NCBI GenBank assembly: GCA_017466325.1 | Contig: JAFTUK010000050.1 | Span: forward strand, 1-63,712 | Reading direction: 5' to 3' | Source: Bacteroidaceae bacterium | Lineage (GTDB): Bacteria; Bacteroidota; Bacteroidia; Bacteroidales; Bacteroidaceae | DNA: 63,712 nt | Shown here: piece after piece, positions 3,452 through 29,331 of the stretch | How the letters are laid out: every line of letters starts with the position of its first letter | Numbering within the stretch: the stretch's first letter is position 1 | Position numbers and translations under genes: made by a program | The notes under the pieces: generated by a model | Told to the model about the DNA's origin: nothing | The model's database searches: none | What the model saw: the letters and a program-made list of their open reading frames with translations, nothing else

Positions 3452-3473
3452 GGAAACACCAAAAGCAGACCCA

Positions 3474-4762: not shown

Positions 4763-4771
4763 AACAAGAGA

Positions 4772-4779: not shown

Positions 4780-4792
4780 CAAAGAATAATCG

Positions 4793-4800
4793 TATCTTTG
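4793..4800 (+). promoter_or_regulatory. -7 promoter box for fmt
   Basis: TATCTTTG matches the Bacteroidetes -7 consensus. It is divergent from the nrnA-like promoter, and the two boxes are only 13 bp apart, so they may compete or be co-regulated. Confidence 0.6.
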
Positions 4801-4831
4801 CACGTGAGAGCACATAAATATTATGTTTTAT

Positions 4832-5809: not shown

Positions 5810-5817
5810 GGAACGGA

Positions 5818-6117: not shown

Positions 6118-6146
6118 AAAAATCATACAATAAGAGAGTATAAGAC

Positions 6147-6180
6147 AATCGCCCGTGACCATTATGAGTCACGGGCGATT
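6147..6180 (-). terminator. Hairpin terminator for DUF5723 gene
   Basis: A perfect 13-bp stem (AATCGCCCGTGAC, 6147-6159, with its complement at 6168-6180) and an 8-nt loop. It lies 23 bp past the stop of the minus-strand gene ending at 6203. T-rich sequence follows on the minus strand. Confidence 0.8.
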
Positions 6181-6202
6181 GCTTTATACTGATGTCTTGC
6201 GT

Positions 6203-7618: not shown

Positions 7619-7658
7619 AATCATAATATTTACTTTAGGATATCACATATAGTATTGG

Positions 7659-8879: not shown

Positions 8880-8930
8880 ATTATTGTTAATTATGGTTTA
8901 ATTTCGTTCGGATATAAAACAAGATATGCG

Positions 8931-8938
8931 CAAATATA
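8931..8938 (-). promoter_or_regulatory. -7 promoter box for lipoprotein-DUF5723 operon
   Basis: The minus strand reads TATATTTG, matching TAnnTTTG, about 52 bp upstream of the lipoprotein start. The DNA further upstream is very AT-rich. Confidence 0.5.
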
Positions 8939-9054
8939 CAAAAAAAACTAAATACTCATTAGTATTATGCATATTTTTTTGTTTATTTTCGTTAAAAAAG
9001 CAATGGGCACAGACACCACCAAAAGAATGGCATAGCCCCCATGGCATCATATTC

Positions 9055-9140
9055 TGTCCTCGGTGGTCATAAAGTTCACCGCCCTCGGCGATAAAGTACA
9101 CCGCCAGTGGCGACAAAATTCACCGCCACCGAAGGCGAGA
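9055..9140 (+). repeat. CCGCC-rich dispersed repeat, copy 1
   Basis: Part of a 427-bp gene-free gap (8880-9306). It contains TGTCCTCGGTGG, then AAAGTTCACCGCC, CACCGCCAGTGGCG and ATTCACCGCCACCG. The same words occur in inverse orientation at about 41660-41756. The rest of the gap shows nothing identifiable. Confidence 0.65.
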
Positions 9141-9306
9141 TAAGGCATTAATGGCGACAACAAGCGAAGAAGACGAAAAAGGAGCAATTTGCCTGCCAGG
9201 GTAAAGTCTTTTAGGCAGCAGGAACCTTTTCCCCAAAAAGTTGTCCGCAATGCCTATTTACCAGCACTGCGGACAACGTCTTACGAAATATCAAAATTTC
9301 CTATCA

Positions 9307-10263
9307 TTATATCTCCCAACCGAGAGCGCTGGCACCAAGCACAGCTGCGCTGGCACCGTCAAGTTCGCTGAGCAGGATCTTTGCCTTACCCTTGTAGACA
9401 AAGAGGACATTCTCATCGTATGCCTTGCGGACATGAGCCATAAGCAACTCGCCTGCCTTTGTGGGACCACCGAAGAAGATGAATGCCTCGGGGCTGGAGA
9501 AGGGAGCGAAGTTGGCACAAGCCTCGCCAAGACGGCGACCGGTATCGGCAAGAATCTCGAGAGCCAGTTCGTCACCGTTGGAAGCGGCGATAGACACGTC
9601 CTTGGCCTCGAGTTTTGAACTCAGGATATCTCTCAGGGAAGAAGGACGACGGCTGATTGCCAACTTCTCTATAGCACTGCGTGCGATACCTGTACCGGAG
9701 CAATAGCACTCCAAACAACCGCGACGGCCACAACCGCACTCGCGACCGTTCTTCTCCACGATGACATGGCCCAGTTCACCGGCGAAACCATCGTGGCCGT
9801 AAACCAACTGACCGTTTACGACAACACCGCTACCAACACCTGTGCCCAGAGTGATCTCGATGAAGTTCTTCATGCCACGTGCGGCACCATATGCCATTTC
9901 GCCGATAGCAGCGGCATTGGCATCGTTGGTCAGTACAACGGGAATGCCCAGAGCCTCCTGGAACATCTTCACCAAGGGGATGTTGCCACGCCACTCCAGA
10001 TTGGGGGCATCCTCGATACAACCGGAATAATAGTTGCCGTTGGGGGCACCAATACCCATAGCCTTTATTTTCTCGATACCGCCAACCTCGGCAATCAGAG
10101 GCTTCAGAGCCTCGACACAGGCATTCACATACTTTTCTGCAGTACCATGACCGGTGGTGGGGATAGAAACAGACTTGACAATCTTTGCGTCCTTGTCAAC
10201 AATGCCGAACACAGAATTGGTACCACCCAGGTCCAATCCTATTACATAGGGTTTCTTATTCAT
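9307..10263 (-). CDS. ROK family glucokinase
   Basis: 318 residues. The ATP phosphate-binding motif is GLDLGGTN (residues 9-16). The sugar-binding TNDANAAAIGE (about residue 112) carries the catalytic Asp, followed by TLGTGVGSG. The ROK zinc motif CGCGRRGCLE (about residue 178) is preceded by GELGH. The features fit cytoplasmic glucose kinases of the ROK family, which make glucose-6-phosphate. N-acetylmannosamine kinase or another ROK sugar kinase is possible, but there is no N-terminal helix-turn-helix, so it is not a ROK repressor. It is a single gene with its own promoter, divergent from the LysE exporter. Confidence 0.88.
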   Translation of the reverse strand: MNKKPYVIGLDLGGTNSVFGIVDKDAKIVKSVSIPTTGHGTAEKYVNACVEALKPLIAEVGGIEKIKAMGIGAPNGNYYSGCIEDAPNLEWRGNIPLVKMFQEALGIPVVLTNDANAAAIGEMAYGAARGMKNFIEITLGTGVGSGVVVNGQLVYGHDGFAGELGHVIVEKNGRECGCGRRGCLECYCSGTGIARSAIEKLAISRRPSSLRDILSSKLEAKDVSIAASNGDELALEILADTGRRLGEACANFAPFSSPEAFIFFGGPTKAGELLMAHVRKAYDENVLFVYKGKAKILLSELDGASAAVLGASALGWEI

Positions 10264-10304
10264 GCTATTATGATTTATAAGGTTATTTGCTTACGCTGTA
10301 TGGG

Positions 10305-10312
10305 CAAAGTTA
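10305..10312 (-). promoter_or_regulatory. -7 promoter box for ROK glucokinase
   Basis: The minus strand reads TAACTTTG, 41 bp upstream of the start codon, matching the TAnnTTTG consensus. Confidence 0.6.
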
Positions 10313-10395
10313 GCACTTATTTTGCAATAAAGGGTATTTTTTAATTACAAATGTATGTTAAAATGAAAAAAAAGTCCGTTATTTGCATTCATATT

Positions 10396-11061
10396 ATGTG
10401 GATAGAACCTGTTAGCACATTGGAATTGGTTTTCAAAGGTCTCATTGTGGGTATTCTGGCGAGTGCTCCGATGGGGCCTGTAGGCGTCCTTACCATACAA
10501 CGAACTTTGAACAAGGGACGTTGGTTTGGTTTTGTTACCGGTGTGGGAGCCGCCATATCAGACTTAATATATGCGGCCTTATCCATTTTGGGCATGAGTT
10601 TCGTGATGGACTTTATCGAAAATCCTAGCAACATGTTCTGGTTCAAGGTTGTAGGAGGAATACTGCTGATGTTCTTCGGAATATACACATATCTCAGCAA
10701 TCCTACACAGAACCTGCGCCCCACCAACCCCAACAAGGGTTCCCTATGGCACAACGGCATAACAGGATTCCTGGTAACTTTCTCTAACCCCCTCATCATT
10801 CTGCTTTTCATTGCATTGATGGCACGCTTTGAGTTCGTTGTACCGGAGCACTATCTGGAGCAGGGACTCGGATACATAGCCATATTAGGGGGAGCACTGC
10901 TATGGTGGTTCTGCCTGACATACATTATAAATAAGGTAAGGAACAAATTCCAGGTAAGCACCATCTGCAAAATAAACCGCATAATCGGAAGCATTGTCAT
11001 AGCGGCCGGATTCATTGGCTTTTTATGGGCATTGCTGCCCAAATTCGGCATCAATATATAA
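10396..11061 (+). CDS. LysE/RhtB family amino-acid exporter
   Basis: About 221 residues from the preferred ATG at 10396 (MWIEPVSTLELVFKG). An upstream in-frame ATG at 10351 would add 15 residues not typical of the family. The first transmembrane helix contains the SAPMGPVGV motif (the family's GPxxA-like signature), followed by about five more hydrophobic helices; FSNPLIILLF is another conserved segment. LysE-type proteins export amino acids or related small molecules across the inner membrane; the substrate is unknown here. It is followed after 19 bp by a DUF4924 gene on the same strand and then prfC, so it may head a small operon. Confidence 0.85.
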   Translation: MWIEPVSTLELVFKGLIVGILASAPMGPVGVLTIQRTLNKGRWFGFVTGVGAAISDLIYAALSILGMSFVMDFIENPSNMFWFKVVGGILLMFFGIYTYLSNPTQNLRPTNPNKGSLWHNGITGFLVTFSNPLIILLFIALMARFEFVVPEHYLEQGLGYIAILGGALLWWFCLTYIINKVRNKFQVSTICKINRIIGSIVIAAGFIGFLWALLPKFGINI

Positions 11062-16645: not shown

Positions 16646-16842
16646 ACTTCTTGATAAATTCTATTTTGGAGTAGAGTTGTCGTCTATAGGCTTATTTGGT
16701 TTTTAATGGTTAAACGTCAATTTCAACCTGCACAAAAGGCAGATTTGGCGCAAAGTACGTACATTTTTTTGAAAAAAACAAGAAAACACTTTTTTTTCTT
16801 AAAGTCTGTAACCAACATGATGTCTCTTTGGCGAAAAAAGTG

Positions 16843-16850
16843 TAACTTTG
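16843..16850 (+). promoter_or_regulatory. -7 promoter box for purL
   Basis: TAACTTTG at the end of the 233-bp gap before purL (16646-16878, otherwise AT-rich and featureless). The expected transcript start, about 4-7 bp further on, falls after the ATG at 16852. This excludes that ATG and supports 16879 as the start. Confidence 0.65.
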
Positions 16851-16878
16851 TGTGCAATTATATTTATCCGAAAAAGAT

Positions 16879-19800
16879 ATGGCAATTACCTTCTTTAAGA
16901 CACCGCAGCAGACCATCATTGCTACGGAAAGCGCCGAGGTTCTGACCAAGGCCGAGATAGAAAAGTTGTGCTGGCTGTATGGCGAGGCCGAAATGTTGGA
17001 AGCAGACCGTCTGGAGGGTTGCTTCGTTGGTCCGCGCCGTGAGATGATAACTCCCTGGAGCACCAATGCCGTGGAAATAACCCAGAACATGGCTGTACAG
17101 GGCATAGCACGCATAGAGGAGTACTTCCCCGTGGAGAGCGAGGATGCCGAGTTCGACCCCATGCTCCAGCGCATGTACAAGAACGGTCTGAACCAGGAAC
17201 TCTTCCGCGTGAACATAGAACCACAGCCCATCGTGGAGATTACCGACCTGGAGACATACAACGAGCAGGAAGGTCTGGCACTGAGCGCCGAAGAGATTGA
17301 ATACCTGCACAAGGTGGAGGGCCAGTTGGGCCGTCCCCTGACAGACTCCGAGGTGTTCGGTTTCGCACAGATCAACAGCGAGCACTGCCGCCACAAGATT
17401 TTCGGCGGCACCTTCATCATCGACGGAGAAGAGAAGGAGAGCAGCCTGTTCCAGATGATCAAGAAGACCACACAGGAAAACCCCAACCGCATACTCTCTG
17501 CCTACAAGGACAACGTAGCGTTCAGCCAGGGTCCCAAGGTGGAACTCTTTGCGCCTGCCACCCATGCCGAGCCCGACTACTATCAGGTGAAGGAGGTGGA
17601 GAGCGTTATCTCACTGAAGGCAGAGACCCACAACTTCCCCACCACCGTGGAGCCTTTCAACGGTGCTTCAACCGGTAGCGGAGGTGAGATACGCGACCGT
17701 ATGGGCGGTGGTGTAGGTTCCATGCCCATTGCAGGTACGGCTGTGTACATGACCAGTTACTCACGCCTGCAGGGCGATGCTGTAAGTGCCGAGCACGATG
17801 CAAGTCTGAAGCAGTGGGAAAAGATATTGCCAGTACGCGAGTGGCTGTACCAGACTCCCGAGCAGATTCTCATAAAGGCCTCCAACGGTGCCAGCGACTT
17901 CGGCAACAAGTTCGGCCAGCCCCTCATCTGCGGTTCCGTGCTTACCTTCGAGCACAACGAGGAGGGCAGCCAGGAGAGATACGCCTATGACAAGGTTATC
18001 ATGCTTGCAGGCGGTGTGGGCTACGGCACAAAGCGCGACTGTCTGAAAGGCCAGCCCCAACCCGGCAACAAGGTTGTGGTGATGGGTGGCGAGAACTACC
18101 GCATCGGTCTGGGTGGCGGCAGTGTAAGTTCCGTGGAGACTGGCCGTTACAGCAGTGGCATCGAGTTGAACGCCGTACAGCGCGCCAACCCCGAAATGCA
18201 GAAGCGCACCTACAACGTGGTACGAGCCCTGTGCGAGGAGGACAACAACCCCATCGTCAGTATCCACGACCATGGTTCTGCAGGACACGTGAACTGTCTG
18301 AGCGAACTTGTCGAGGAGTGTGGCGGCATCATACACATGGACAAACTGCCCATCGGCGACAAGACACTCTCTGCCAAGGAAATCATTGCCAACGAGAGCC
18401 AGGAGCGCATGGGTCTGCTCATTGACGAAAAGGCCATAGAGCATGTGCGCCGCATTGCCGAGCGCGAACGTGCCCCCATGTACACCGTGGGCGAGACAAC
18501 CGGCGACCACCGCTTCACCTTCGAGCAGGCCGACGGCGTGCGTCCCTTTGACCTGGCCGTAGAGCAGATGTTCGGTTCGTCTCCCAAGACCATCATGGTG
18601 GACAAGACCGTGGAGCGCACATACAGCGACAAGAAGGACATTGATCCTGCACAGATAGAGACATACCTGAAGAACCTCCTGCCCTTGGAGGCCGTTGCAT
18701 GTAAGGACTGGCTGACCAACAAGGTGGACCGTTGCGTCAGCGGCCGCGTGGCACGCCAGCAGTGTCAGGGCGAATTGCAGTTGCCCCTGAGCGACTGCGG
18801 TGCCGTGGCTCTCGACTACCGTGGCGAGAAGGGTATTGCCACCGCACTGGGTCATGCACCTCAGGCTGCACTGGCCAACCCTGCAGCAGGCAGCGTGCTG
18901 GCAGTGGCAGAGGCACTGACCAACCTGGTATGGGCACCCCTTGCCATAGAGGACGAGAAGGGTGCAAGTGCCATGGACAGCATCAGCCTGAGCGCCAACT
19001 GGATGTGGCCCTGCCGTGCACAGGAGGGCGAGGACGCACGTCTGTATAGCGCCGTTAAGGCATTGAGCGACTTCTGCTGCGCCCTGCAGATCAACGTGCC
19101 CACCGGCAAGGACTCTCTGAGCATGACCCAGAAGTACCCCAACGGCGACAAGGTGGTAAGTCCCGGTACCGTGATTGTAAGCGCAGGCGGCGAGGTAAGC
19201 GACATCAAGAAGATAGTTTCTCCCGTGCTGAAGCAGGTGAAGGGCAAGTGGGCAGGCAGCCGTCTGTACCATATCGACTTCAGTTTCGATGCCCTGAAAC
19301 TGGGCGGCAGCGCCTTCAACCAGAGTTGGGGGCTGGTGGGCAGCGACGTTCCCACAGTACAGAACCCCGAATACTTCCGCGATGCCTTCCTGGCTGTTCA
19401 GCAACTCGTCAGCGAGGGCCTCATACTTGCCGGTCACGACATCAGTGCCGGCGGTCTGGCAACCTGTCTGCTGGAAATGTGCTTTGCCAACACCACAGGT
19501 GGTCTGAAACTCGACCTGAGCAAGTTCAAGGGAGAGAATGACGCACAGGATGCATTGGTGAAGATCCTATTTGCCGAGAACCCCGGTGTGGTAATTCAGG
19601 TAAGCGACGAGAACGGTGCACGCGTGAAGAAGATTCTGGAGGATGCCGGTGTGGGGTACATCAAGATCGGCGAGGTTTGCGAGGAGCGCACCATCGACCT
19701 TGGCCAGGGCATCAAACTGGACATCGACCAGTACCGCGACATCTGGTACCAGACTTCATACCTGCTGGACCGCAAGCAGAGTTTCCACGGCAAGGCTGCC

Positions 19801-20724
19801 GAGCGCTACCAGAACTACAAGAGCATGCCCGTACAGCCCGTCTTCGGCAAGGACTTCACCGGTAAGTTGAGCCAGTACGGAGCCAACCCCGACCGCCGTG
19901 AAAAGAGCGGCATCCGTGCCGCCGTCATCCGCGAGAAGGGAACCAACAGCGAGCGCGAGATGGCATACTCCTTCTGGCTGGCAGGCTTCGACGTGAAGGA
20001 CGTTACCATGACCGACCTCATCTCCGGACGCGAGACTCTGGAGGACGTGAACGTGATTGCCTTCTGCGGCGGTTTCTCCAACAGCGACGTTCTGGGCAGT
20101 GCCAAGGGATGGGCAGGCGCATTCCTGTACAACCCCAAGGCCAAGGAGGCATTGGACAAGTTCTATGCACGCGAGGACACTCTGAGTCTTGGCGTCTGCA
20201 ACGGTTGCCAGTTGATGATAGAATTGGGACTGGTAAACAAGTCTCTGGATACCGCCAACGGCGAGAGCATCCTGGACAGCAAGCGACTGAGCCAGTACCG
20301 CAAAGATACTGCACAGATGCTGCACAACGACAGCCACAAGTTCGAGAGCACCTTCGTAGCACTTACCATACCCGAGAACAAGAGCGTGATGTTCGGTTCG
20401 CTGAGCGGATTCAAGATTGGTACATGGGTGGCACACGGCGAGGGCAAGTTCCGTCTTCCCAAGGCAGAAAGCGAATACAACGTGGTGGCAAAGTTCAGTT
20501 ACACTGGCTATCCCGGCAACCCCAACGGTTCCGACTACGACGTGGCAGCCATCTGTAGCGGCGACGGCCGTCACCTGGCCATCATGCCTCACCCCGAACG
20601 CACCATCTTCCCATGGCAGTGCGGCTACTATCCCGAGGAGCGCCGTCTCACCGACCAGTGCACTCCATGGCTGGAAGCCTTCGTGAACGCACGCAAGTGG
20701 GTTGAAGAGAGAATGAAGAAATAA
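16879..20724 (+). CDS. purL: Phosphoribosylformylglycinamidine synthase (FGAM synthase)
   Basis: 1281 residues, the long single-chain form with a fused glutaminase. It converts FGAR, ATP and glutamine to FGAM in purine synthesis. The N-terminal domain is followed by two AIR-synthase-like halves; AETHNFPTTVEPFNGASTGSGG and SAGHVN motifs are seen in the first half, and GHDISAGGL in the second. The C-terminal glutamine amidotransferase domain has the nucleophile Cys in LGVCNGCQLM and the His/Glu pair in MPHPER. Start 16879 (MAITFFKTPQQ) was chosen by promoter position. It is a single gene, ended by a very strong hairpin. The assignment is secure. Confidence 0.97.
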   Translation: MAITFFKTPQQTIIATESAEVLTKAEIEKLCWLYGEAEMLEADRLEGCFVGPRREMITPWSTNAVEITQNMAVQGIARIEEYFPVESEDAEFDPMLQRMYKNGLNQELFRVNIEPQPIVEITDLETYNEQEGLALSAEEIEYLHKVEGQLGRPLTDSEVFGFAQINSEHCRHKIFGGTFIIDGEEKESSLFQMIKKTTQENPNRILSAYKDNVAFSQGPKVELFAPATHAEPDYYQVKEVESVISLKAETHNFPTTVEPFNGASTGSGGEIRDRMGGGVGSMPIAGTAVYMTSYSRLQGDAVSAEHDASLKQWEKILPVREWLYQTPEQILIKASNGASDFGNKFGQPLICGSVLTFEHNEEGSQERYAYDKVIMLAGGVGYGTKRDCLKGQPQPGNKVVVMGGENYRIGLGGGSVSSVETGRYSSGIELNAVQRANPEMQKRTYNVVRALCEEDNNPIVSIHDHGSAGHVNCLSELVEECGGIIHMDKLPIGDKTLSAKEIIANESQERMGLLIDEKAIEHVRRIAERERAPMYTVGETTGDHRFTFEQADGVRPFDLAVEQMFGSSPKTIMVDKTVERTYSDKKDIDPAQIETYLKNLLPLEAVACKDWLTNKVDRCVSGRVARQQCQGELQLPLSDCGAVALDYRGEKGIATALGHAPQAALANPAAGSVLAVAEALTNLVWAPLAIEDEKGASAMDSISLSANWMWPCRAQEGEDARLYSAVKALSDFCCALQINVPTGKDSLSMTQKYPNGDKVVSPGTVIVSAGGEVSDIKKIVSPVLKQVKGKWAGSRLYHIDFSFDALKLGGSAFNQSWGLVGSDVPTVQNPEYFRDAFLAVQQLVSEGLILAGHDISAGGLATCLLEMCFANTTGGLKLDLSKFKGENDAQDALVKILFAENPGVVIQVSDENGARVKKILEDAGVGYIKIGEVCEERTIDLGQGIKLDIDQYRDIWYQTSYLLDRKQSFHGKAAERYQNYKSMPVQPVFGKDFTGKLSQYGANPDRREKSGIRAAVIREKGTNSEREMAYSFWLAGFDVKDVTMTDLISGRETLEDVNVIAFCGGFSNSDVLGSAKGWAGAFLYNPKAKEALDKFYAREDTLSLGVCNGCQLMIELGLVNKSLDTANGESILDSKRLSQYRKDTAQMLHNDSHKFESTFVALTIPENKSVMFGSLSGFKIGTWVAHGEGKFRLPKAESEYNVVAKFSYTGYPGNPNGSDYDVAAICSGDGRHLAIMPHPERTIFPWQCGYYPEERRLTDQCTPWLEAFVNARKWVEERMKK

Positions 20725-20737
20725 AACATGACATACT

Positions 20738-20770
20738 GCGAGGGCGGGGGAGACTCTTCCCCGCCCTCGC
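20738..20770 (+). terminator. Strong GC hairpin after purL
   Basis: GCGAGGGCGGGG (20738-20749) pairs perfectly with CCCCGCCCTCGC (20759-20770) around a 9-nt loop, 13 bp after the purL stop. No T-run follows; a 9-bp repeat array begins immediately. Confidence 0.7.
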
Positions 20771-20851
20771 AACTATAGGAGTTATAGATGCTATAGATTC
20801 TATAGAAACTATAGAGACTATAGAGATTATAGAGGCTATAGAAAGTTATAG
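20771..20851 (+). repeat. Nine-unit 9-bp array NNN-CTATAG
   Basis: Contiguous 9-bp units, most ending in CTATAG or TTATAG with three variable bases before it (ATG, ATT, AAA, AGA, AGG and so on). CTATAG is itself a palindrome, so the array presents a palindromic hexamer roughly once per DNA turn. It bridges purL and the chromate transporter genes. The same unit occurs at 33673-33708 and inside gluQ at 32878-32922. Confidence 0.85.
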
Positions 20852-20866
20852 TATCATCACACACAG

Positions 20867-21391
20867 ATGCTTGAACTATTCGTCACCTTTGCCAAGATAG
20901 GACTGTTTACCATCGGGGGAGGCTATGCCATGATTCCTCTGATAAAGCAGACCGTTGTGGATGAGAAGCAATGGGCCACAGAGGAAGAACTGATGGACCT
21001 CATTGCCGTGGCACAGTCGTGTCCCGGTGTGTTTGCCGTTAACATCAGCGTGTTCATCGGCTACAGGATGAAGCGTCTGCCCGGAGCACTGATGTGCGCC
21101 TTTGGCGCTGCCCTACCCTCTTTCTTTATCATATTGGCCATAGCGATATTCTTTCGCCAGTATAGGGAGAACCCGGTTGTGGCAAGCATATTCCGTGGCA
21201 TACGTCCTGCCGTGGCGGCACTGATAGCAGCCCCCGTGTTCAGGATGGCACGCACGGCCAAGATAAATATATATAATGTATGGATACCCGTGGTGGCGGC
21301 CCTTGCCATCTGGATGCTCGGTTTCAGTCCCGTTTTCGTCATACTTATAGCAGCCCTTGGCGGATATGCCTATGGCCAACTAACCAAATAA
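20867..21391 (+). CDS. Chromate transporter family protein, subunit 1
   Basis: 174 residues, a single CHR domain. It starts MLELFVTFAKIGLFTIGGGYAMIPLI, the conserved FxKIGxxxFGGG-type N-terminal motif, followed by VAQSCPGVFAVN and about five hydrophobic helices. Short single-domain CHR proteins work as heterodimers, as here with the next gene 49 bp downstream. The family exports chromate or takes up sulfate-like oxyanions; in anaerobic gut-type bacteria the natural substrate is not known. It is preceded by a 9-bp repeat array rather than a clear promoter. Confidence 0.85.
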   Translation: MLELFVTFAKIGLFTIGGGYAMIPLIKQTVVDEKQWATEEELMDLIAVAQSCPGVFAVNISVFIGYRMKRLPGALMCAFGAALPSFFIILAIAIFFRQYRENPVVASIFRGIRPAVAALIAAPVFRMARTAKINIYNVWIPVVAALAIWMLGFSPVFVILIAALGGYAYGQLTK

Positions 21392-21418
21392 GACTCTAAG
21401 GACCCTAAGGACCCTACC
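21392..21418 (+). repeat. 9-bp array, three units (GACTCTAAG/GACCCTAAG)
   Basis: GACTCTAAG, GACCCTAAG and GACCCTACC follow directly on the stop codon of the first chromate transporter gene and precede the second. Same family as 11628-11645. Confidence 0.65.
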
Positions 21419-21440
21419 TCCACACTAAAGCCTGTTAAAC

Positions 21441-22013
21441 ATGATATTCTTCCTCCTATTCATAACATTCTTCCAGATAGGTCTGCTTGGTTTCGGCGGA
21501 GGCTACTCCATGCTGTCCATGATACAGGCGGAAGTGGTGACACGCCATGGTTGGATGACCATGAGCGAATTCACCGACATGGTGGCAATAAGCCAGATGA
21601 CACCCGGTCCCATAGGCATCAACTCGGCCACCTACACCGGTTACACAGCCGTAGTGAATGCCGGTTACCCAGAATGGGCCGGACTTTTAGGCTCTGCCCT
21701 GGCAACCTTTGCCTTGGTACTGCCCACATTCGTACTGATGATTATCATCAGCCGCTTCCTGCTCCGCTATAAATCCCATCCTATTGTGGAAAGCATATTC
21801 AAGGGTCTTCGCCCTGCCGTAGTGGGACTCATAGCAGCAGCGGCACTGCTACTATGCACACAGGACAACTTCGGCAGTCCCGACACCGACCCATGGAGGT
21901 TTTGGATAAGCCTTGGACTCTTCGTCTTTGTGTTCATTGGCCAGCAGGTTTACAAGTTGCACCCCATACTGCTCATCTGCATGTGCGGTGTAGCAGGATT
22001 GATACTTTTTTAA
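21441..22013 (+). CDS. Chromate transporter family protein, subunit 2
   Basis: 190 residues, a second single CHR domain. MIFFLLFITFFQIGLLGFGGGYSML and MVAISQMTPGPIGINSATYTGY carry the conserved GFGGG and PGPxxxN motifs. It is a paralogue of the upstream gene; the two short CHR proteins are expected to assemble with opposite membrane orientation. Co-transcription is inferred from the short gap containing only a 9-bp repeat array. A tRNA-Pro gene follows with its own promoter. The substrate is unknown; sulfate or chromate is the family's annotation. Confidence 0.86.
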   Translation: MIFFLLFITFFQIGLLGFGGGYSMLSMIQAEVVTRHGWMTMSEFTDMVAISQMTPGPIGINSATYTGYTAVVNAGYPEWAGLLGSALATFALVLPTFVLMIIISRFLLRYKSHPIVESIFKGLRPAVVGLIAAAALLLCTQDNFGSPDTDPWRFWISLGLFVFVFIGQQVYKLHPILLICMCGVAGLILF

Positions 22014-22056
22014 GAAAATATCTTACGTTTTGCTTGCATAAACAAAAAAAAGGGGT

Positions 22057-22064
22057 TACCTTTG
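22057..22064 (+). promoter_or_regulatory. Promoter for tRNA-Pro
   Basis: TACCTTTG (-7 type) at 22057-22064 with TTG at 22034-22036, about 20 bp upstream, matching the Bacteroidetes -33/-7 arrangement. The tRNA begins 31 bp after it. Confidence 0.6.
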
Positions 22065-22094
22065 CAATGTGTTAAGCTTAAAGGCAAGGCACAT

Positions 22095-22167
22095 CGGGGT
22101 GTAGCGCAGTTGGTAGCGCACCTGGTTTGGGACCAGGTGGTCGCCCGTTCGAGTCGGGTCACCCCGA
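22095..22167 (+). tRNA. tRNA-Pro (anticodon TGG)
   Basis: Cloverleaf is visible: acceptor CGGGGTG pairing with CACCCCG, a D-arm region GCGCAGTTGGTAGCGC, and an anticodon stem CCTGG/CCAGG with loop TTTGGGA (anticodon TGG). The T-arm contains GTTCGAGTC. No CCA is encoded; a discriminator A is followed by C and then a T-run (22169-22175) that likely terminates transcription. Confidence 0.95.
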
Positions 22168-22211
22168 CTTTTTTTATTTATTATAGTACCTGAAATAATA
22201 CTAACAAGACT

Positions 22212-23282
22212 ATGAAGAAGTATAATTTCAATGCAGGTCCCTCCAAGTTGCCCAAAGAGGTAATGGAGGCAGTTTCTAAAGCATGTATCGAATTTGAAGG
22301 CAGCGGTCTCTCCCTGATGGAGATGAGCCACCGCGCAAAGAACTTCCAGCCCGTGCTGGACGAGGCAGTAGCACTGTTCAAGGAGTTGCTCAATATCCCC
22401 GAGGGATACAGCGTGCTCTTCTTGGGTGGCGGTGCCAGCCTGGAGTTCTGTATGATTCCCTATAACTTCCTGGAGAAGAAGGCTGCATACATCAATACCG
22501 GTGTATGGGCCAAGAAGGCTATGGCCGAGGCAAAACTCTTCGGTGAGTGCGTGGAGGTGGCATGCAGTTCGGATACCAACTACACCTACATCCCCAAGAA
22601 CTTCACCATCCCTGCGGATGCCGACTATTTCCACATCACCACCAACAACACCATCTATGGTACGGAGATACGTCAGGACTTCGACAGTCCCATACCCCTG
22701 ATTGCCGACATGAGTTCAGACATCTTCTCACGCCCTGTGGACGTGAGCAAGTACGCCATGATCTATGGCGGTGCACAGAAGAACCTGGCCATGGCCGGTG
22801 TTACCTTCATCATCGTGAAGGACGAGGCTCTGGGCAAGGTGAGCCGTCAGATTCCTACCATGCTGGACTACCGCACACACATCAAGGGCGGTTCCATGTT
22901 CAACACACCTCCCACAGTGCCCATCTACTGCGCTCTGCAGACACTGAGATGGATTAAGAAGAACGGCGGTGTGGCCGAGATGGAGCGCCGTGCCATAGAG
23001 AAGGCCACAGCCCTCTATGCCGAGATAGACCGCAACAAGATGTTCCGTGCCACAGTACAGGATGCCGAGGACCGCAGCCGCATGAACGTTTGCTTCGTGA
23101 TGAACGAGGAGTACAAGGACCTGGAGGCCGACTTCATGGCATTCGCCACAGAGCGCGGCATGGTGGGCATCAAGGGACACCGCAGCGTGGGTGGTTTCCG
23201 TGCAAGTCTCTACAATGCAGTGGACATGGAGGACGTTCAGGCTCTCGTTGCCTGCATGCAGGAGTTCGAGGCCCAGCACTAA
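22212..23282 (+). CDS. serC: Phosphoserine aminotransferase
   Basis: 356 residues, a class V aminotransferase that makes phosphoserine from 3-phosphohydroxypyruvate and glutamate with PLP. The N-terminus [19 protein letters not shown] is diagnostic of Ser[11 protein letters not shown] binds the cofactor phosphate, [10 protein letters not shown] carries the PLP aspartate region, and [13 protein letters not shown] holds the Schiff-base lysine (about residue 190). [14 protein letters not shown] is the conserved C-terminal substrate motif. It is followed after 46 bp by serA, so the two steps of serine synthesis are paired. Confidence 0.97.
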
Positions 23283-23328
23283 TCGGCGCTGTATGCCTTT
23301 ATATATATAATAAGGAAAGAATACCTAT

Positions 23329-24252
23329 ATGGCAAAGATACTTATAGCAACGGAGAAGCCTTTCAGCAAGGTTGCCGTTGACGGAATTAAGAAAGTGGCA
23401 GACGAGGCCGGCATGGAACTGGCCCTGCTGGAGAAATACACAGAAAAGGCCCAACTTTTAGAGGCCGTTGCCGATACCGATGCTCTCATTGTGCGCTCCG
23501 ACAAGGTGGACGCCGAGGTGGTTGAGGCTGCCAAGAACCTGAAGATTGTTGTCCGCGCCGGTGCCGGTTTTGACAACCTCGACCTTGAAGCCTGCACAAA
23601 GGCCGGTGTAGTGGCAATGAACACTCCCGGACAGAATGCCAACAGTGTGGCAGAACTGGTGTTCGGCATGCTCGTAATGGCAGTGCGCAACTTCTACGAC
23701 GGAACCAGCGGCACTGAGTTGATGGGCAAGAAGTTGGGCATCCTAGCCTTCGGTAACGTGGGCCGCAACGTGGCACGCATAGCCAAGGGCTTCGGCATGG
23801 AGGTGATGGCATACGACGCCTTCTGCCCTGCTGAGGCAATAGAGAGTGCCGGGGTGAAGGCTGCCGCAAACCAGGTGGAACTCTTCGAGCAGTGCGATGT
23901 GGTTTCCCTCCACATCCCCGCTACCGCAGAGACACGCCAGAGCATCAACGCCGAACTTGTAGGCAAGATGAAGAAGGGCGGCATCGTGGTGAACACCGCA
24001 CGCAAGGAGGTTATCGACGAGGCCTCTCTGCTTGGTCTGATGAAGGAGCGTACCGACCTGAAGTACGTTGCCGACATCAAGCCCGACATGCACGCAGAAT
24101 ACTCTGAGGCACTCGCCGGACGCTATTTCGCCACTCCCAAGAAGATGGGAGCGCAGACGGCCGAGGCCAACGTGAACGCAGGCATTGCCGCAGCAAAGCA
24201 GATTGTCGGTTACCTGAAGGACGGCATCACCAAGTTCCAGCTGAACAAGTAA
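23329..24252 (+). CDS. serA: D-3-phosphoglycerate dehydrogenase (short form)
   Basis: 307 residues of the D-2-hydroxyacid dehydrogenase family, making 3-phosphohydroxypyruvate with NAD+. Seen are VRAGAGFDNLDLEA (substrate Arg region), GILAFGNVGRNVARIAKGFG (a Rossmann motif, with FGNVG in place of the common GLGxIG), VVSLHIPAT, and VVNTARKEVIDE. There is no C-terminal ACT regulatory domain, so it is the short type and probably lacks serine feedback through ACT. The usual EP-H tail motif appears altered (KPDMHAEY). Position right after serC supports the assignment. Confidence 0.9.
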   Translation: MAKILIATEKPFSKVAVDGIKKVADEAGMELALLEKYTEKAQLLEAVADTDALIVRSDKVDAEVVEAAKNLKIVVRAGAGFDNLDLEACTKAGVVAMNTPGQNANSVAELVFGMLVMAVRNFYDGTSGTELMGKKLGILAFGNVGRNVARIAKGFGMEVMAYDAFCPAEAIESAGVKAAANQVELFEQCDVVSLHIPATAETRQSINAELVGKMKKGGIVVNTARKEVIDEASLLGLMKERTDLKYVADIKPDMHAEYSEALAGRYFATPKKMGAQTAEANVNAGIAAAKQIVGYLKDGITKFQLNK

Positions 24253-24291
24253 ACGGAAAAACTGAAACCAGAAATCCTAAGCCCTACATCT

Positions 24292-24471
24292 ATGACATAC
24301 GGAAAATTGCTTGGCGCCTCAATCACAGGCATATTGTTCGCCCTCTTCATGTGGATTGGCGATGAGTTCGTCCTTGATGACAAGAACCCATTCTACGTGT
24401 ATATCGTTTACGCCTTAGTGTTTGCCGTGGCAATGTTCTTGTACGACAAGTTCTTCGGCAAGAAGAAATAA
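24292..24471 (+). CDS. Small two-helix membrane protein (59 aa)
   Basis: An ATG at 24292 opens a 59-residue frame ending TAA at 24469-24471: MTYGKLLGASITGILFALFM, then a charged middle (GDEFVLDDKNP), a second hydrophobic segment (YIVYALVFAVAMFLY) and a basic tail (DKFFGKKK). Two transmembrane helices with a short acidic loop are predicted. It lies in the serC-serA-DUF1015-yigZ run, 39 bp after serA and 24 bp before DUF1015, so it is probably co-transcribed. No family recognised; coding potential is supported by the positive-inside tail and good codon use. Confidence 0.6.
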   Translation: MTYGKLLGASITGILFALFMWIGDEFVLDDKNPFYVYIVYALVFAVAMFLYDKFFGKKK

Positions 24472-24495
24472 GAAACCTGATAAAAATCTGATACT

Positions 24496-25743
24496 ATGGC
24501 AATCATCAAACCTTTCAAGGGATTGAGACCCCCCAAAGACCTTGTAGAACAGGTACAGTCACGCCCCTACGACGTATTGGACTCTGAAGAAGCCCGCGCC
24601 GAGGCCGAGGGCAACGAGAAAAGCCTTTACCATATCATCAAGCCGGAGATAGACTTCCCCGTCGGTACCAGCGAATATGCACCCGAGGTGTATGCCAAGG
24701 CAGCAGAGAACTTCCAGAAGTTCCAGGACAACGGCTGGCTGGTACAGGACAAGGAGGACGGATACTATATCTATGCACAGACCATGAACGGCAAGACACA
24801 GTTCGGTCTGGTGGTATGTGCCTACGTGGACGACTACATGAACGGTGTCATCAAGAAGCACGAACTGACACGCCGCGACAAGGAGGAAGACCGCATGAAG
24901 CACGTCCGCGTGAACGATGCCAACATGGAGCCTGTCTTCTTTGCCTATCCCGACAATGACACTCTGGCTGCCATCATAGCACGCTATGTATGCAACGAGC
25001 CTGAATATGACTTCACCGCTGCCACCGATGGTTTCCGCCATCAGTTGTGGCTCATACAGGACAAGCAGGACCAGGAGGCTATCACCAAGGCCTTTGCCGA
25101 AATTCCCTACCTCTATATTGCCGACGGCCACCATCGTAGTGCCGCCGCCGCTCTGGTGGGTGCCGAGAAGGCAAAGCAGAACCCCAACCACCGTGGCGAC
25201 GAGGAGTACAACTACTTCATGGCAGTCTGCTTCCCTGCAAGCCAACTGACCATCCTCGACTACAACCGCGTGGTGAAGGACCTCAACGGACACAGCAGCC
25301 TGAAATTCATGTCCCTGCTGGCAGAGAACTTCACCGTAACCCCCATGGGCGAGTCATGCTACCGTCCCGAGAAACTGCACGAGTTCAGCCTGTATCTGGA
25401 CGGCGAGTGGTACAAGTTGGAACTGCTCCCCGGCAAGGCAGACGACAACGACCCCATCAAGTCTCTGGACGTGAGCATCAGCAGCGAACTCATCCTTGAC
25501 CAGATTCTGGGCATCAAGGACCTGCGCAGCGACAAGCGCATAGACTTCGTGGGCGGTCTCCGTGGCTTGGAGGAACTGAAGCGCCGTGTGGACAGCGGAG
25601 AAATGCGCATGGCCCTGGCACTCTATCCCGTCAGCATGCAGCAGATCATCAACATTGCCGACAGCGGCAACATCATGCCTCCCAAGGCCACGTGGTTTGA
25701 GCCTAAGTTGCGCTCAGGTCTGGTGGTACACAAATTGTCGTAA
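24496..25743 (+). CDS. DUF1015 family protein
   Basis: 415 residues with the typical N-terminus MAIIKPFKGLRPP and SRPYDVLDSEEA, and the DGHHRSAAAA motif near residue 212, defining DUF1015. Many Bacteroidetes and clostridial genomes carry it next to serC/serA, and it is proposed to take part in serine or amino-acid metabolism (some members are serine kinase-like). The His-His-Arg motif suggests a phosphoryl-transfer role. It overlaps the yigZ-like start by one base (TAATG), so the two are tightly coupled. Confidence 0.85.
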   Translation: MAIIKPFKGLRPPKDLVEQVQSRPYDVLDSEEARAEAEGNEKSLYHIIKPEIDFPVGTSEYAPEVYAKAAENFQKFQDNGWLVQDKEDGYYIYAQTMNGKTQFGLVVCAYVDDYMNGVIKKHELTRRDKEEDRMKHVRVNDANMEPVFFAYPDNDTLAAIIARYVCNEPEYDFTAATDGFRHQLWLIQDKQDQEAITKAFAEIPYLYIADGHHRSAAAALVGAEKAKQNPNHRGDEEYNYFMAVCFPASQLTILDYNRVVKDLNGHSSLKFMSLLAENFTVTPMGESCYRPEKLHEFSLYLDGEWYKLELLPGKADDNDPIKSLDVSISSELILDQILGIKDLRSDKRIDFVGGLRGLEELKRRVDSGEMRMALALYPVSMQQIINIADSGNIMPPKATWFEPKLRSGLVVHKLS

Positions 25744-26354
25744 TGAGAGATTCATACAAAGTATTGACAAAACCAAGCGAGGGAACCTACTCCGAACTAA
25801 GGAGCAAGTTCCTCGCTTTTGCTATACCCGTGCGCACGGCCGAAGAGGCCATGGAGCAGGTGGCGAAGTATCAGAAGGAGTATTTCGACGCACGCCACGT
25901 CTGCTGGGCATACCGTCTGGGACTCGAGGGAGAGGAGTACCGCTCCAACGACAACGGCGAGCCTTCCGGCACGGCAGGCAAGCCCATACTGGGACAGATG
26001 GTCAGTGCCGACGTGTCCGATCTCATCATCCTGGTGATACGATATTTCGGCGGAGTGAAACTGGGCACCAGCGGCCTCATCGTTGCCTACCGCACGGCAG
26101 CCGCCGAGGCTTTGGAGGCAGGCGAGTATGCCGAGCGTCTGGTGGAGAAGGAGTTGAAACTGACCTTCGGCTACGAGCACATGAACATGGTCATGCGCAT
26201 GGTCAAGGACCTGCAGCCACGCATCGTCAGCCAGGACTATAAGGACAACGGCGACATCGTCATGACCATAGCCATACGCCTCTCACTTGTGGAACGTGTG
26301 CACTCGGCCTTCATTGTCAACGGCCAAAGCCTCGTGAAGGTAGAGGAGTGTTGA
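25743..26354 (+). CDS. YigZ/IMPACT family protein
   Basis: 203 residues with an N-terminal UPF0029/IMPACT domain (EYFDARHVCWAYRLGLEGEEYRS..DNGEPSGTAGKPIL) and the YFGGVKLGTSGL motif, followed by a short C-terminal DUF1949 ferredoxin-like domain. Members of this family bind translation machinery or act as oxidoreductase-like stress proteins; the exact bacterial role is unsettled. The start overlaps the DUF1015 stop by a base. Its last 26 bp plus the next four form a perfect 30-bp repeat that recurs at 28025, at the far side of a GNAT/AraC cassette. Confidence 0.88.
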   Translation: MRDSYKVLTKPSEGTYSELRSKFLAFAIPVRTAEEAMEQVAKYQKEYFDARHVCWAYRLGLEGEEYRSNDNGEPSGTAGKPILGQMVSADVSDLIILVIRYFGGVKLGTSGLIVAYRTAAAEALEAGEYAERLVEKELKLTFGYEHMNMVMRMVKDLQPRIVSQDYKDNGDIVMTIAIRLSLVERVHSAFIVNGQSLVKVEEC

Positions 26355-26358
26355 CGTG
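26329..26358 (+). repeat. 30-bp direct repeat, left copy (3' end of yigZ)
   Basis: GCCTCGTGAAGG through GTTGACGTG at 26329-26358 is identical to 28025-28054 for all 30 bases. It covers the last codons and stop of yigZ. Flanking bases differ on both sides, so the repeat is exactly 30 bp. Confidence 0.9.
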
Positions 26359-26395
26359 GCATTGCAAACCATATCCCCTCAATGCGTACTTTTCA

Positions 26396-26998
26396 TCAGA
26401 AACACTTTCGGTAGATGTAGGTTAGGTAGTCGTTGGCATCGGTCTTCCACTCGTTGCTCTTGAATTCGGCAACCTTCTCAAAACCGTGGTGGGCATAATA
26501 GCCATGGTTGCACGATGAGTCGGTCCATAGGTAGAGGTTCTCATAGCCCTCGCTCTTTGCCAATGCCACAACCTCCGCCAGCAACCGCTTTCCGCAACCT
26601 TGCACTGCCGAAATGAAGAAAGACAAATACAAATCCTTGTCTGCTCGCATATAACGATAGACCTTTGGCGAGGTCTTGCCGAAGTATTCACGCAGAGCCA
26701 ACGCCTCCTTGCGTTGCTGATCATTGAATGTCGGCATTACACTATCCAACCATTTGTTGTAGCCGCTATCCTGTCCGATATTGCCTGCAAGGATACAACC
26801 CACCATCTTTCCCTCATCGGTAATCTTGAAGGCATAAGGTGCGCCATACCAGCCATAGCGGATGATATACTCGCACATCAGCAGTCCGAACTCTTCGCCC
26901 TGACCATTTGCAGCGTGCCCCTCGCCCCACACGGGATAGGCAAGATGTGCCGCCTCACGAATATCCTCTTCGCTAAATGTTTCTATCTTCATTGCCAT
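26396..26998 (-). CDS. GNAT family N-acetyltransferase
   Basis: About 200 residues from MAMKIETFSEEDIREAA (start 26998; MKIETF at 26992 is an alternative, and an upstream frame to 27043 lies before the promoter). The C-terminal half shows the acetyl-CoA motif SAVQGCGKRLLAEVVALA (Q/RxxGxG/A is seen as QGCGKR) and YYAHHGFEKV, typical of GNAT motif B. A longer N-terminal segment precedes it. The acceptor is unknown. It lies inside the 30-bp-repeat-bounded cassette, and is divergent from the AraC-type gene 133 bp away. An antibiotic or toxin acetylation role is conceivable but unsupported. Confidence 0.82.
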   Translation of the reverse strand: MAMKIETFSEEDIREAAHLAYPVWGEGHAANGQGEEFGLLMCEYIIRYGWYGAPYAFKITDEGKMVGCILAGNIGQDSGYNKWLDSVMPTFNDQQRKEALALREYFGKTSPKVYRYMRADKDLYLSFFISAVQGCGKRLLAEVVALAKSEGYENLYLWTDSSCNHGYYAHHGFEKVAEFKSNEWKTDANDYLTYIYRKCF

Positions 26999-27013
26999 TT
27001 GGTTTTTCGGGTG

Positions 27014-27021
27014 CAAAGTTA
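27014..27021 (-). promoter_or_regulatory. -7 promoter box for GNAT gene
   Basis: The minus strand reads TAACTTTG, 15 bp before the ATG at 26998. The expected transcript has a leader of about 10 nt, and the box rules out the start at 27043. Confidence 0.55.
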
Positions 27022-27108
27022 TAATATAAAGAGTAAACGGCATATAGACAAATCACTCCCGACACGGTACTTTTCGATACCATTCTTAAATAATAAGGGA
27101 TATTTAAC

Positions 27109-27116
27109 TATCTTTG
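27109..27116 (+). promoter_or_regulatory. -7 promoter box for AraC-type gene
   Basis: TATCTTTG, 15 bp upstream of the preferred ATG at 27132. Divergent from the GNAT promoter across about 90 bp, a natural place for the regulator to act on both. Confidence 0.55.
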
Positions 27117-27131
27117 CGGCATAAATCGGGT

Positions 27132-27974
27132 ATGGAGAGATTGCAGATTGGAATCATTGCCAACGGAGGCAGGACTGGACAGACAGACTTTAAGGCATAC
27201 GGCAGCAACCGCATAGGAATAAGCGGCTGTATGGTACTGCTTGTCGATAGTGGGCGTGCCATCGTATCGGTAGGTTTCAAGCGAAGGGTTCTCTGTAGAG
27301 GGATGATGGCTGTGCTGTTCTATGATGACACGTTCTGGATAGAACGAAGTAGCCATACATTCCGTTGCCGATATGTTGCCCTTTCCTACGACAATGTGCA
27401 GGAGGCAATCTATAAACTCACATCACCTTACTTCTGGGACTCCCTGTCAGAAAATCCACTGTTCCGCCCCGACAACGCCCAATGGGAACTTTTAGAGAGA
27501 TGGTATGAGCAGATGGTGTGGATATGCCACAATTCAGCAAACGAATACACCGACCAACTGCTCAGAAACAATATACACAACCTCTTTATGGCAATGGACG
27601 GTGCGATGACACATAGCGGTGCAGGTTCAAACAAGCCCATCAGCAGAAGCCGCATCCTGATTATCAAATTCCTAAAACTTGTAGCACAGCATTTCCGCAC
27701 CACACGCGAAGTGTCGTTCTATGCCCGGCAACTATGTATCACTACAACCTATCTCTACAAACTGACACACAGGCGATGGAACCTATCTCCCAAGGAACTG
27801 ATTGACCAACAGACAATCTGCGAGATAAAGACATTGCTGTCTAATACTGACATGTCGGTCAAGGAGATAGCACACGCACTCAATTTTGAGGATATTCCGT
27901 ATATGTGCCGATATTTCAGGCAACGCACAGGACTATCGCCAATGCAATATAAAAACGATATAAAAAGGTCATAA
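27132..27974 (+). CDS. AraC family transcriptional regulator
   Basis: About 280 residues from MERLQIGIIANGG (27132); the upstream ATG at 27114 precedes the likely transcript start. The C-terminal 100 residues form the AraC double helix-turn-helix: VSFYARQLCITTTYLYKLTH for the first, and MSVKEIAHALNFEDIPYMCRYFRQRTGLSPMQYK for the second. The N-terminal domain (residues 1-170) is a likely cupin-like effector domain, with no clear ligand. It sits divergently beside the GNAT gene inside the repeat-bounded cassette, which suggests it controls that acetyltransferase. Confidence 0.85.
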   Translation: MERLQIGIIANGGRTGQTDFKAYGSNRIGISGCMVLLVDSGRAIVSVGFKRRVLCRGMMAVLFYDDTFWIERSSHTFRCRYVALSYDNVQEAIYKLTSPYFWDSLSENPLFRPDNAQWELLERWYEQMVWICHNSANEYTDQLLRNNIHNLFMAMDGAMTHSGAGSNKPISRSRILIIKFLKLVAQHFRTTREVSFYARQLCITTTYLYKLTHRRWNLSPKELIDQQTICEIKTLLSNTDMSVKEIAHALNFEDIPYMCRYFRQRTGLSPMQYKNDIKRS

Positions 27975-28024
27975 CATCTTCGTCCCTATGCTTTTCCTTG
28001 GGTTGTATCGGCTTCGTGGGTGCT

Positions 28025-28054
28025 GCCTCGTGAAGGTAGAGGAGTGTTGACGTG
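28025..28054 (+). repeat. 30-bp direct repeat, right copy
   Basis: Identical to 26329-26358. It contains the last codons and stop of yigZ but no preceding yigZ sequence, so it is a duplicated gene end rather than a second gene. Confidence 0.9.
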
Positions 28055-28109
28055 ACAACACTCCGGTGTTGATGCGACAACAAAACTTTGTTGATATAGC
28101 AACAAAATT
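28044..28109 (+). repeat. Three tandem GTTG-N6-CAAC hairpin units
   Basis: Units of 22, 23 and 21 bp begin at 28044, 28066 and 28089. Each contains GTTG, six bases, then CAAC (the first extends to GTGTTG...CAACAC). The first unit begins within the right 30-bp repeat. The rest of this gap, up to 28238, holds a terminator-like hairpin and nothing else. Confidence 0.6.
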
Positions 28110-28117
28110 AAATCCCC

Positions 28118-28164
28118 ATAATGGTACATGCTCGGTTTCGTGAACATGCACCATCATTATTTTT
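28118..28164 (+). terminator. Imperfect hairpin with T-run, terminator-like
   Basis: ATGGTACATG (28121-28130) pairs with CATGCACCAT (28145-28154) with one mismatch. It is followed by CATTATTTTT. It could end transcription arriving from the AraC gene or from yigZ. Confidence 0.5.
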
Positions 28165-28238
28165 AGAAAAACTCACAAAACTACGAAAGGATTTCCGCAT
28201 CCCCGTGTCTAAGAGAGTAGAGAACAACAGAAAAACGG

Positions 28239-28721
28239 ATGGAAAACATTGAATTGCAATTCACGAAAATGGTGGAGGAATACCGGAAGACTATCTACAC
28301 CGTATGCTATTTCTTCTCCAAGGACACGGAAGAGGTGAACGACCTTTTTCAGGAAATCCTTATAAACCTATGGAAAGGTTTCCCGAAATTCCGTGGAGAG
28401 AGCGACATCAGGACATGGATATGGCGCGTAAGCCTGAACACATGCAGTAACCAGAAACGCAAAAAGGACAGCCGGGTACAGACAGTACCGCTATCGGTAG
28501 ACATCGACCTCTACAACGATGACGACCTGCACAGCCGGCAGATACAGATGCTGTACGACCGCATCAACAGGCTTGACGTCTTTGACAAAGCCATCATCCT
28601 CCTCTGGCTGGAGAACATGACGTACCAGGACATAGCCAGCGTGGTAGGCATATCCACCGCCGCCGTCACCACCCGTTTGTTCCGCATAAAGGAACAGTTG
28701 AAATCAATGTCTAACAAGTAA
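28239..28721 (+). CDS. ECF-type RNA polymerase sigma factor
   Basis: 160 residues. Region 2 spans about residues 5-75 (EEVNDLFQEILINLWKGFPKF and RTWIWRVSLNTCSNQ), and region 4 about 100-155 (DKAIILLWLENMTYQDIASVVGISTAAVTTRLFRIKEQL). It is a minimal ECF factor. The next gene starts 14 bp downstream and encodes a small four-helix membrane protein, which would be the natural place for an anti-sigma factor. That protein does not look like a FecR/PupR-type regulator, so the pair may be one of the less-studied ECF groups. Confidence 0.9.
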   Translation: MENIELQFTKMVEEYRKTIYTVCYFFSKDTEEVNDLFQEILINLWKGFPKFRGESDIRTWIWRVSLNTCSNQKRKKDSRVQTVPLSVDIDLYNDDDLHSRQIQMLYDRINRLDVFDKAIILLWLENMTYQDIASVVGISTAAVTTRLFRIKEQLKSMSNK

Positions 28722-28734
28722 ACACGGAACTATC

Positions 28735-29331
28735 ATGTCACAACAAACCCTTGACCTCAGCGAACTGCAGGAACTGAAAGAGCAGTTCAACCTTATGGAT
28801 GCCAAACTGGAAAAGCAGAGAATCATCAACGAGAAGATGCTGGAAAAGTCCATGAAGGAAAACCTTTCACACATAGAACGCTGGTACCAGTACCGCCTGC
28901 GCGTATGCAGCATTTCTGCGCCATTGGTAAGTTTCATCTTCTTAGTAAAGTTCTTTGACCAAGGCATAGCCTACTGGGGATTCTGCCTGATGATCATGGC
29001 CGTAGCCCTGCTGGAACTGTATCTGGACAGGAAAAGTTACCATGCCCTCGACATCAGCAACCTGCCCAACCTGAGCATGACCAAAGCCACGGAGAACGTA
29101 ATCAGACACAAGAAATACCGCAGCATGACAAACTGGTTGCTGCTCGTCCCCGGCACTGCCCTTGTGGTATGGACCATCCTTATTGCCAGCAACTTCACAT
29201 GGGACCTGCGCATCATTGCCATCACCACGTTTACCATGGGCGTCTCCATCCTATGGGGCCTGCGCCAATCCAAGAAAAACGGCAAGAGACTGGATGAAGT
29301 GCTGGAACATATCAAGGAACTAAGGGGCTAA
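28735..29331 (+). CDS. Four-TM membrane protein, putative sigma-factor partner
   Basis: 198 residues. The N-terminal 45 residues are charged and helical (ELQELKEQFNLMDAKLEKQ), a likely coiled coil facing the cytoplasm. Four hydrophobic segments follow: SISAPLVSFIFLVKFF, WGFCLMIMAVALLELYL, WLLLVPGTALVVWTILIA and IIAITTFTMGVSILWGL. It lies 14 bp after the ECF sigma gene and ends just before a terminator, so it is co-transcribed. Anti-sigma function is inferred from position and topology (cytoplasmic helix plus membrane anchor) rather than from recognised domains. Confidence 0.6.
   Translation: MSQQTLDLSELQELKEQFNLMDAKLEKQRIINEKMLEKSMKENLSHIERWYQYRLRVCSISAPLVSFIFLVKFFDQGIAYWGFCLMIMAVALLELYLDRKSYHALDISNLPNLSMTKATENVIRHKKYRSMTNWLLLVPGTALVVWTILIASNFTWDLRIIAITTFTMGVSILWGLRQSKKNGKRLDEVLEHIKELRG

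Follow-up and report, generated by a model that had tools for sequence, protein, structure and literature searches.

A GNAT–AraC gene pair inserted at the 3′ end of yigZ in a Bacteroidaceae genome is bounded by a 30-bp duplication of the gene end

The locus lies in a 63,712-nucleotide stretch of DNA (the window), which is contig C48 of a draft Bacteroidaceae genome (G000; 2.59 Mb, 56 contigs, 88% complete). The genes follow one another in the order DUF1015, yigZ, a GNAT-type acetyltransferase gene (−), an AraC-type regulator gene (+), a sigma factor gene, a gene for a 198-aa protein and an M16 peptidase gene (−) (Table 1). The 198-aa neighbour of the sigma factor gave no Pfam match; in a search of 139 same-genus genomes, its close relatives were found in G093 (95% amino acid identity) and G094 (82%).

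Table 1 Features at the yigZ 3′ end (window coordinates)
Feature	Position	Strand	Basis and remarks
yigZ (UPF0029/IMPACT family), complete, C-terminus ...VKVEEC*	25743..26354	+	ORF and domain search; G093 ortholog 99% identical at the amino acid level
Left repeat copy, 30 bp exact	26329..26358	+	To 26361 with one mismatch; contains the yigZ stop codon
Insert missing in G093 and G094	26359..28024	+	Length 1,666 bp with the 30-bp repeat as boundary, 1,663 bp with the 33-bp repeat
ATGAAAAG, putative MATE start remnant overlapped by the GNAT stop	26389..26396	-	As in the L098/L099 GNAT–MATE junctions
GNAT-type acetyltransferase, 198 aa	26396..26992	-	ORF, Pfam, aligned homologues; open frame reaches 27043
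TAACTTTG, putative −7 box for GNAT	27014..27021	-	Read from the sequence
GGTACTTTTCGATAC, 15-bp word, candidate AraC operator	27066..27080	.	Invariant in 9 aligned intergenic regions
TATCTTTG, putative −7 box for AraC	27109..27116	+	Conserved in the intergenic alignment; function inferred
AraC-type regulator, 280 aa	27132..27974	+	ORF, Pfam, aligned homologues; open frame from TTG at 27114
Right repeat copy	28025..28054	+	Runs on into the ancestral sequence, as in G093
Three TGTTG-N6-CAACA palindromes, 22-bp period	28045..28104	.	Overlaps the right repeat copy; RNA fold z −4.1
Sigma-70-type factor	28239..28721	+	In G093/G094 directly after yigZ and the array

A previous sequence-only reading of this DNA had proposed that the last 26 bp of yigZ plus four further bases are copied exactly behind an acetyltransferase and an AraC-type regulator, with different bases outside both copies. 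The copy is exact at 30 of 30 positions, and as yigZ ends at 26354, 26 bp of the repeat lie inside the gene. The two copies do part beyond the repeat, although not at once: a single mismatch is followed by a CA common to both before they diverge, and when the comparison is extended (26329–26361 versus 28025–28057), 32 of 33 positions are identical. Across the 3-kb flanks the second-longest common word is only 12 bp, and the chance expectation for 30-bp matches is arithmetically ~9 × 10^6 × 4^−30, roughly 10^−11. The reading had allowed that a repeat copy elsewhere might explain the match; the yigZ-specific part has no further place in the own genome, and the five other matches are to the part of the repeat that belongs to the palindrome array.

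Comparison with two same-genus relatives revealed the site in its empty form. Window positions 16826–26361 aligned to 243–9761 of the G093 locus L189 at 97% identity and positions 28025–29312 to 9729–11018 at 95%, and the 33-bp stretch common to both alignments occurs once in G093. G094 has the identical order at 88–90% identity and is likewise empty. In both relatives, yigZ, one copy of the stretch, the palindrome array and the sigma factor gene follow one another with nothing in between. Beyond the right copy the sequence follows G093, whereas the left copy ceases to do so after ...GTTGACGTG; it is thus the right copy that has its ancestral surroundings, with yigZ completed by the left. This is a real insertion at the yigZ 3′ end that left yigZ whole, as had been proposed from the repeat, and the relatives show the empty yigZ end that the sequence-only reading had suggested looking for rather than both genes with one repeat copy. 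The relatives compared are species-level draft assemblies, and the joints are known from assemblies. With 56 contigs and 88% completeness, the window genome is also a draft, a situation in which an assembly artefact can arise; we consider this extremely improbable, as both joints (repeat to insert and insert to repeat) would by reasoning need real molecules and the assembly holds no second contig with the empty site.

The two inserted genes were assigned by their Pfam matches, which agree with the acetyltransferase and regulator named before: GNAT matched Acetyltransf_1 (E = 3e-5; 24.7 bits versus a cut-off of 20.7) and the regulator matched HTH_18 (E = 3e-18). Judged from aligned homologues, the likely start codons are at 26992 (GNAT) and 27132 (AraC), which corrects the earlier note. 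We take TAACTTTG to be a putative Bacteroidota-type −7 box for GNAT, and TATCTTTG ahead of AraC is presumably its counterpart under the Bacteroidota promoter consensus. With these two divergent predicted promoters, the pair would be a self-contained regulator–enzyme unit, in which AraC probably binds the conserved 15-bp intergenic motif and thereby controls GNAT. GNAT likely acetylates a toxic small molecule. Its nearest curated model, ArsN2, scored 21 bits versus a cut-off of 125, so far below that we claim no substrate.

The pair is foreign to the genus. No close GNAT relative turned up among the 138 other genomes of the genus (best 36% amino acid identity, in G032, with 3 of the 138 matching at all), and the best AraC match reaches 29% over residues 36–280; these genomes are drafts of 57–100% completeness, in which single absences may be gaps. 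Both genes were detected in four of 398 other family genomes (G213, G181, G350 and G272, the last split over two contig ends), while two more had GNAT or part of it and 15 had short matches only. The genome_contigs search returned 13 loci from Bacteroidales, Bacteroidaceae and Rikenellaceae, with sheep, goat and deer as frequent sources; several lie on the same contigs as those of the family search, judged by equal lengths. Both genes are present at ten of the 13, and L101 and L103 begin inside AraC at contig ends. AraC is 80–88% identical at the amino acid level in 12 loci and 46% in one; given that same-genus yigZ proteins are only 48–86% identical (best place per genome), such values across genera point to recent transfer.

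In other Bacteroidales, the pair occurs at 77–87% DNA identity in varying neighbourhoods. The four that were examined all differ: an S41-type peptidase gene and recN (L094), a DUF169-like gene (L097), a MATE transporter gene (L099) and an EamA-like gene (L091), named by NCBIfam for L099 and by eye for the other three. As the pair is absent from kin yet this similar in other Bacteroidales, it arrived horizontally. The third-position G+C content of GNAT (0.60) and AraC (0.54) is lower than in five neighbouring genes (0.64–0.74), in line with this. At the sensitivity used, no plasmid matched the pair (AraC matched below 60% identity only), the phage collection gave no match with GNAT as query, and viral contigs gave no match to the pair. 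A 725-bp neighbour (95% identity) lies on opposite sides of the pair at two loci, in the left flank of L096 (738–1462) and the right flank of L101 (276–1000). Within the gut Bacteroidales the pair is widely transferred, in some cases together with a MATE pump.

The MATE pump bears on the left end of the insert. At L099, the GNAT stop (gene at 5258–5854) and the MATE start (gene at 3915–5258, assigned by NCBIfam) overlap by one base, so the two look like one operon. The window retains ATGAAAAG past the GNAT stop and then diverges, and homology with other copies ends here; the left end of the insert looks like a cut just inside an apparent former MATE start. From these gene neighbours, an AraC-controlled detoxifying acetyltransferase with a pump would be the natural reading.

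The sequence-only reading had gone further and proposed a recombinase-free mobile unit of a new type at a fixed insertion site. The absence of a recombinase stands, as ORFs and the domain search of the insert show none. A discrete unit is unsupported: homology to every other pair copy ends at or inside 26389 and 27974, that is, it stops at the genes, and a mobile unit with defined ends was rejected since the pair flanks at the 13 loci share no end sequence with the window insert. What other loci share among themselves is the MATE gene or its start (L094, L098 and L099), a terminator-like hairpin after AraC (L091 and L099), a 29-nt flank piece (L092, L093 and L103) or flanks that are near-identical or rearranged among one another (L095, L096, L097 and L101); some flanks compared are short (135 bp in L092, 414 bp in L096 and 569 bp in L093). 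No match was obtained with PADLOC, or with Rfam over 26000–28500 at E 1, and the literature matches listed contained no comparable insertion and no yigZ insertion site.

Repeats around the pair were also sought at the ten other loci with both genes. Eight have no bracketing repeat above 13 bp, some with short flanks. The repeat at L091 was rejected as a bracketing duplication, being a hairpin with an additional copy 1.5 kb on. L094 (G213) has a unique 29-bp exact direct repeat at 4810 and 7026, whose full copy occurs nowhere else in G213. In G354 all 3.3 kb that separate the S41-type gene from recN are missing, and G315, with the recN side present, has no copy of the L094 repeat within 7 mismatches in 16 kb; with no single-copy target in either, the repeat is at most a candidate target duplication. 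The repeats around the pair in L094 are nested (4051–4263, 4810 and 6845–7407): long imperfect copies flank it left and right, and a ~270-bp repeat is dispersed across many places of G213.

A fixed site at yigZ found no support either. With the last 60 + 10 bases around the yigZ end as query, none of 40 other yigZ loci repeats the gene end or carries other cargo between copies of it, and the longest downstream repeat is 12 nt versus 30 in the window; the 40 comprise 38 of 56 non-own places, with 1.5–19.3 kb downstream, plus G093 and G094. These loci weigh on the possibility that the insert is the integrase-less remnant of a tyrosine- or serine-recombinase element that used the yigZ 3′ end, with the 30-bp repeats as attL and attR and the integrase deleted or acting in trans. 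An exact repeat ending just past the stop, a restored gene and an empty site are what such a cis-mobilizable (CIME-like) remnant would leave. We nevertheless hold it to be rather unlikely, because besides the 40 loci, which are without such an element, the insert has no integrase, the repeat is absent elsewhere in the own genome, and the non-gene ends amount to just about 35 and 50 bp that other pair copies do not share.

The length of the duplication suggests a second source, a non-autonomous transposon moved in trans that makes long target duplications. In the parts of PMC10132070 and PMC10045372 consulted, IS1202-group duplications are given as 16–28 or 24–29 bp, and they come with inverted terminal repeats. 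The 30–33 bp in the window is near this range, slightly beyond it. We judge such a transposon highly improbable: the ends GCATTGCAAACC... and ...CTTCGTGGGTGCT are unpaired, the best inverted word (11 nt at 91%) lies away from the ends, and pair copies elsewhere have different ends.

Sequence identity around the junction raises a different route. Upstream the window is 97% like G093 and downstream of the array it is nearer to G094 than to G093, so the junction region has recombined. A close relative with the pair already behind yigZ could have passed it on by homologous recombination, with a duplication older than the strain. This is distinctly unlikely in our estimation, as none of the 138 other same-genus genomes has the pair, and it would merely shift the original insertion to another strain.

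The right repeat copy runs directly into the three-unit palindrome array, which had been absent from the earlier note. Unit one of this array contains the yigZ stop codon in G093; G094 has units one and three intact, with a degenerate unit two. The insert is joined on its left at loop base five of six in the first hairpin, in the spacer of array unit 1. The own genome has 79 TGTTG-N6-CAACA units versus nine for the reversed pattern; from the stretches around the units, they form 23 arrays with a 22-bp period, 20 with three units and three with four, of which 22 are further to that at yigZ (L191–L209). Of 139 genus genomes, 6 have arrays with at least two exact neighbouring units, this genome being one of them. 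By mechanical ORF calling, divergent genes flank only 2 of the 23 arrays, and two arrays were placed inside an ORF. RNA fold z-scores of four arrays were −4.1, −9.0, −9.4 and −7.4, and the N6 core varies between orthologous arrays. Complementarity of spacers within arrays was not significant (8 of 23 versus 6.35 expected; 577 of 2,000 shuffles reached 8). The yigZ C-termini are highly variable: those of the window (26340–26354), G093 and G094 end in VKVEEC, and that of G004 has a longer tail. The yigZ protein of G004 is 86% identical and its gene has no array; the array may have truncated the yigZ gene end.

Such arrays might be fragile or recombinogenic landing pads, whose hairpins, cut in the loop, capture gene pairs with ~30-bp duplications and no recombinase. 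The joint in the loop and two places at or beside arrays where G000 and G093 lose synteny fit this, and it is very unlikely all the same: with flanks of up to about 6 kb compared around each of the 22 other arrays, the longest shared run was 14 nt versus 28 at the window array. As flanks there are not duplicated beyond 14 nt, present evidence does not make the arrays a landing site in general, and we rejected them as a general insertion hotspot. Seven G093 arrays were compared, of which five lie in shared flanks and two at the synteny breaks with G000. Each break is at or within about 100 bp of an array (L225 6081 in G093 and L192 13451 in G000; L226 6007 in G093 and L191 6001 in G000), and for L225 the left flank has its 97% match on a different contig (G000 C16 5179–9676). 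They represent either rearrangement or misassembly at a repeat.

The best explanation, to which we give moderate confidence, is that the pair was acquired once horizontally and captured at the yigZ 3′ end, with about 30 bp of target duplicated. Its source was probably a GNAT–MATE operon and AraC unit of gut Bacteroidales. The array overlapping the yigZ stop could extrude a hairpin or stall a replication fork, whereupon the hairpin loop would break or the template switch there. An incoming DNA fragment would be joined at the loop break, the second joint would be made 30 bp upstream, and fill-in or re-copying would leave the stretch on both sides. The empty sites, the duplication, the foreign gene pair and the left joint in the loop are observed; to these we add by inference the break or template-switch step. 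Capture at a break or stalled fork is favoured because the duplication is host sequence, the insert ends are arbitrary and one joint lies in a hairpin loop. Counting against it, a 30-bp repeat with the stop at a gene 3′ end is also left by integrase-borne elements, and against a one-off event, the unique L094 repeat around the same pair could mean a recurrent process. The locus offers a clean before-and-after pair for a regulator-plus-enzyme unit arriving without visible recombination machinery. If hairpin arrays do aid captures, genes could be gained by that route with no mobile element involved; since the 22 other arrays lack such an insertion, the hairpin role rests on one joint.

Several known systems resemble parts of this locus. 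Acinetobacter dif (pdif) modules, in the part of PMC6449649 consulted, likewise carry adaptive genes between ~30-bp sequences with no recombinase of their own; they are flanked by Xer sites at both ends, and their cargoes vary widely. The window repeats are instead host gene sequence, direct and unique to one site; judged from the repeat sequence, yigZ coding sequence in direct orientation, they led us to reject a module with XerC/XerD flanks. The IS1202 group (same partial sources, PMC10132070 and PMC10045372) shares the long target duplication, whereas the window insert has neither transposase nor terminal inverted repeats. CIMEs, as far as the consulted part of PMC5704250 describes them, share direct repeats at a gene 3′ end, a restored gene and the lack of an integrase; the window insert differs in having no sibling elements at the site and ends unshared with any element found. 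Measured as an integrative element, it has the direct repeats at a gene end and neither an integrase nor same-site relatives. The palindrome arrays are comparable to the BrickBuilt MITE/minisatellite of Porphyromonas gingivalis (PMC4596501, seen in part), which comprises dispersed intergenic tandem repeats of ~22–23 bp at about 20 loci per genome; the arrays of the window family are limited to 3–4 units, and every unit is an inverted repeat around a variable 6-bp core. The insert qualifies as a horizontally acquired genomic islet, with an empty site and genes that are absent from kin and have close relatives in other taxa. It shares with islets the empty site in relatives, foreign distribution, deviating composition and self-contained predicted promoters, and differs in being bounded by an unusually long, near-perfect target duplication of 30–33 bp. 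The event itself is ordinary; its duplication is unusually long.
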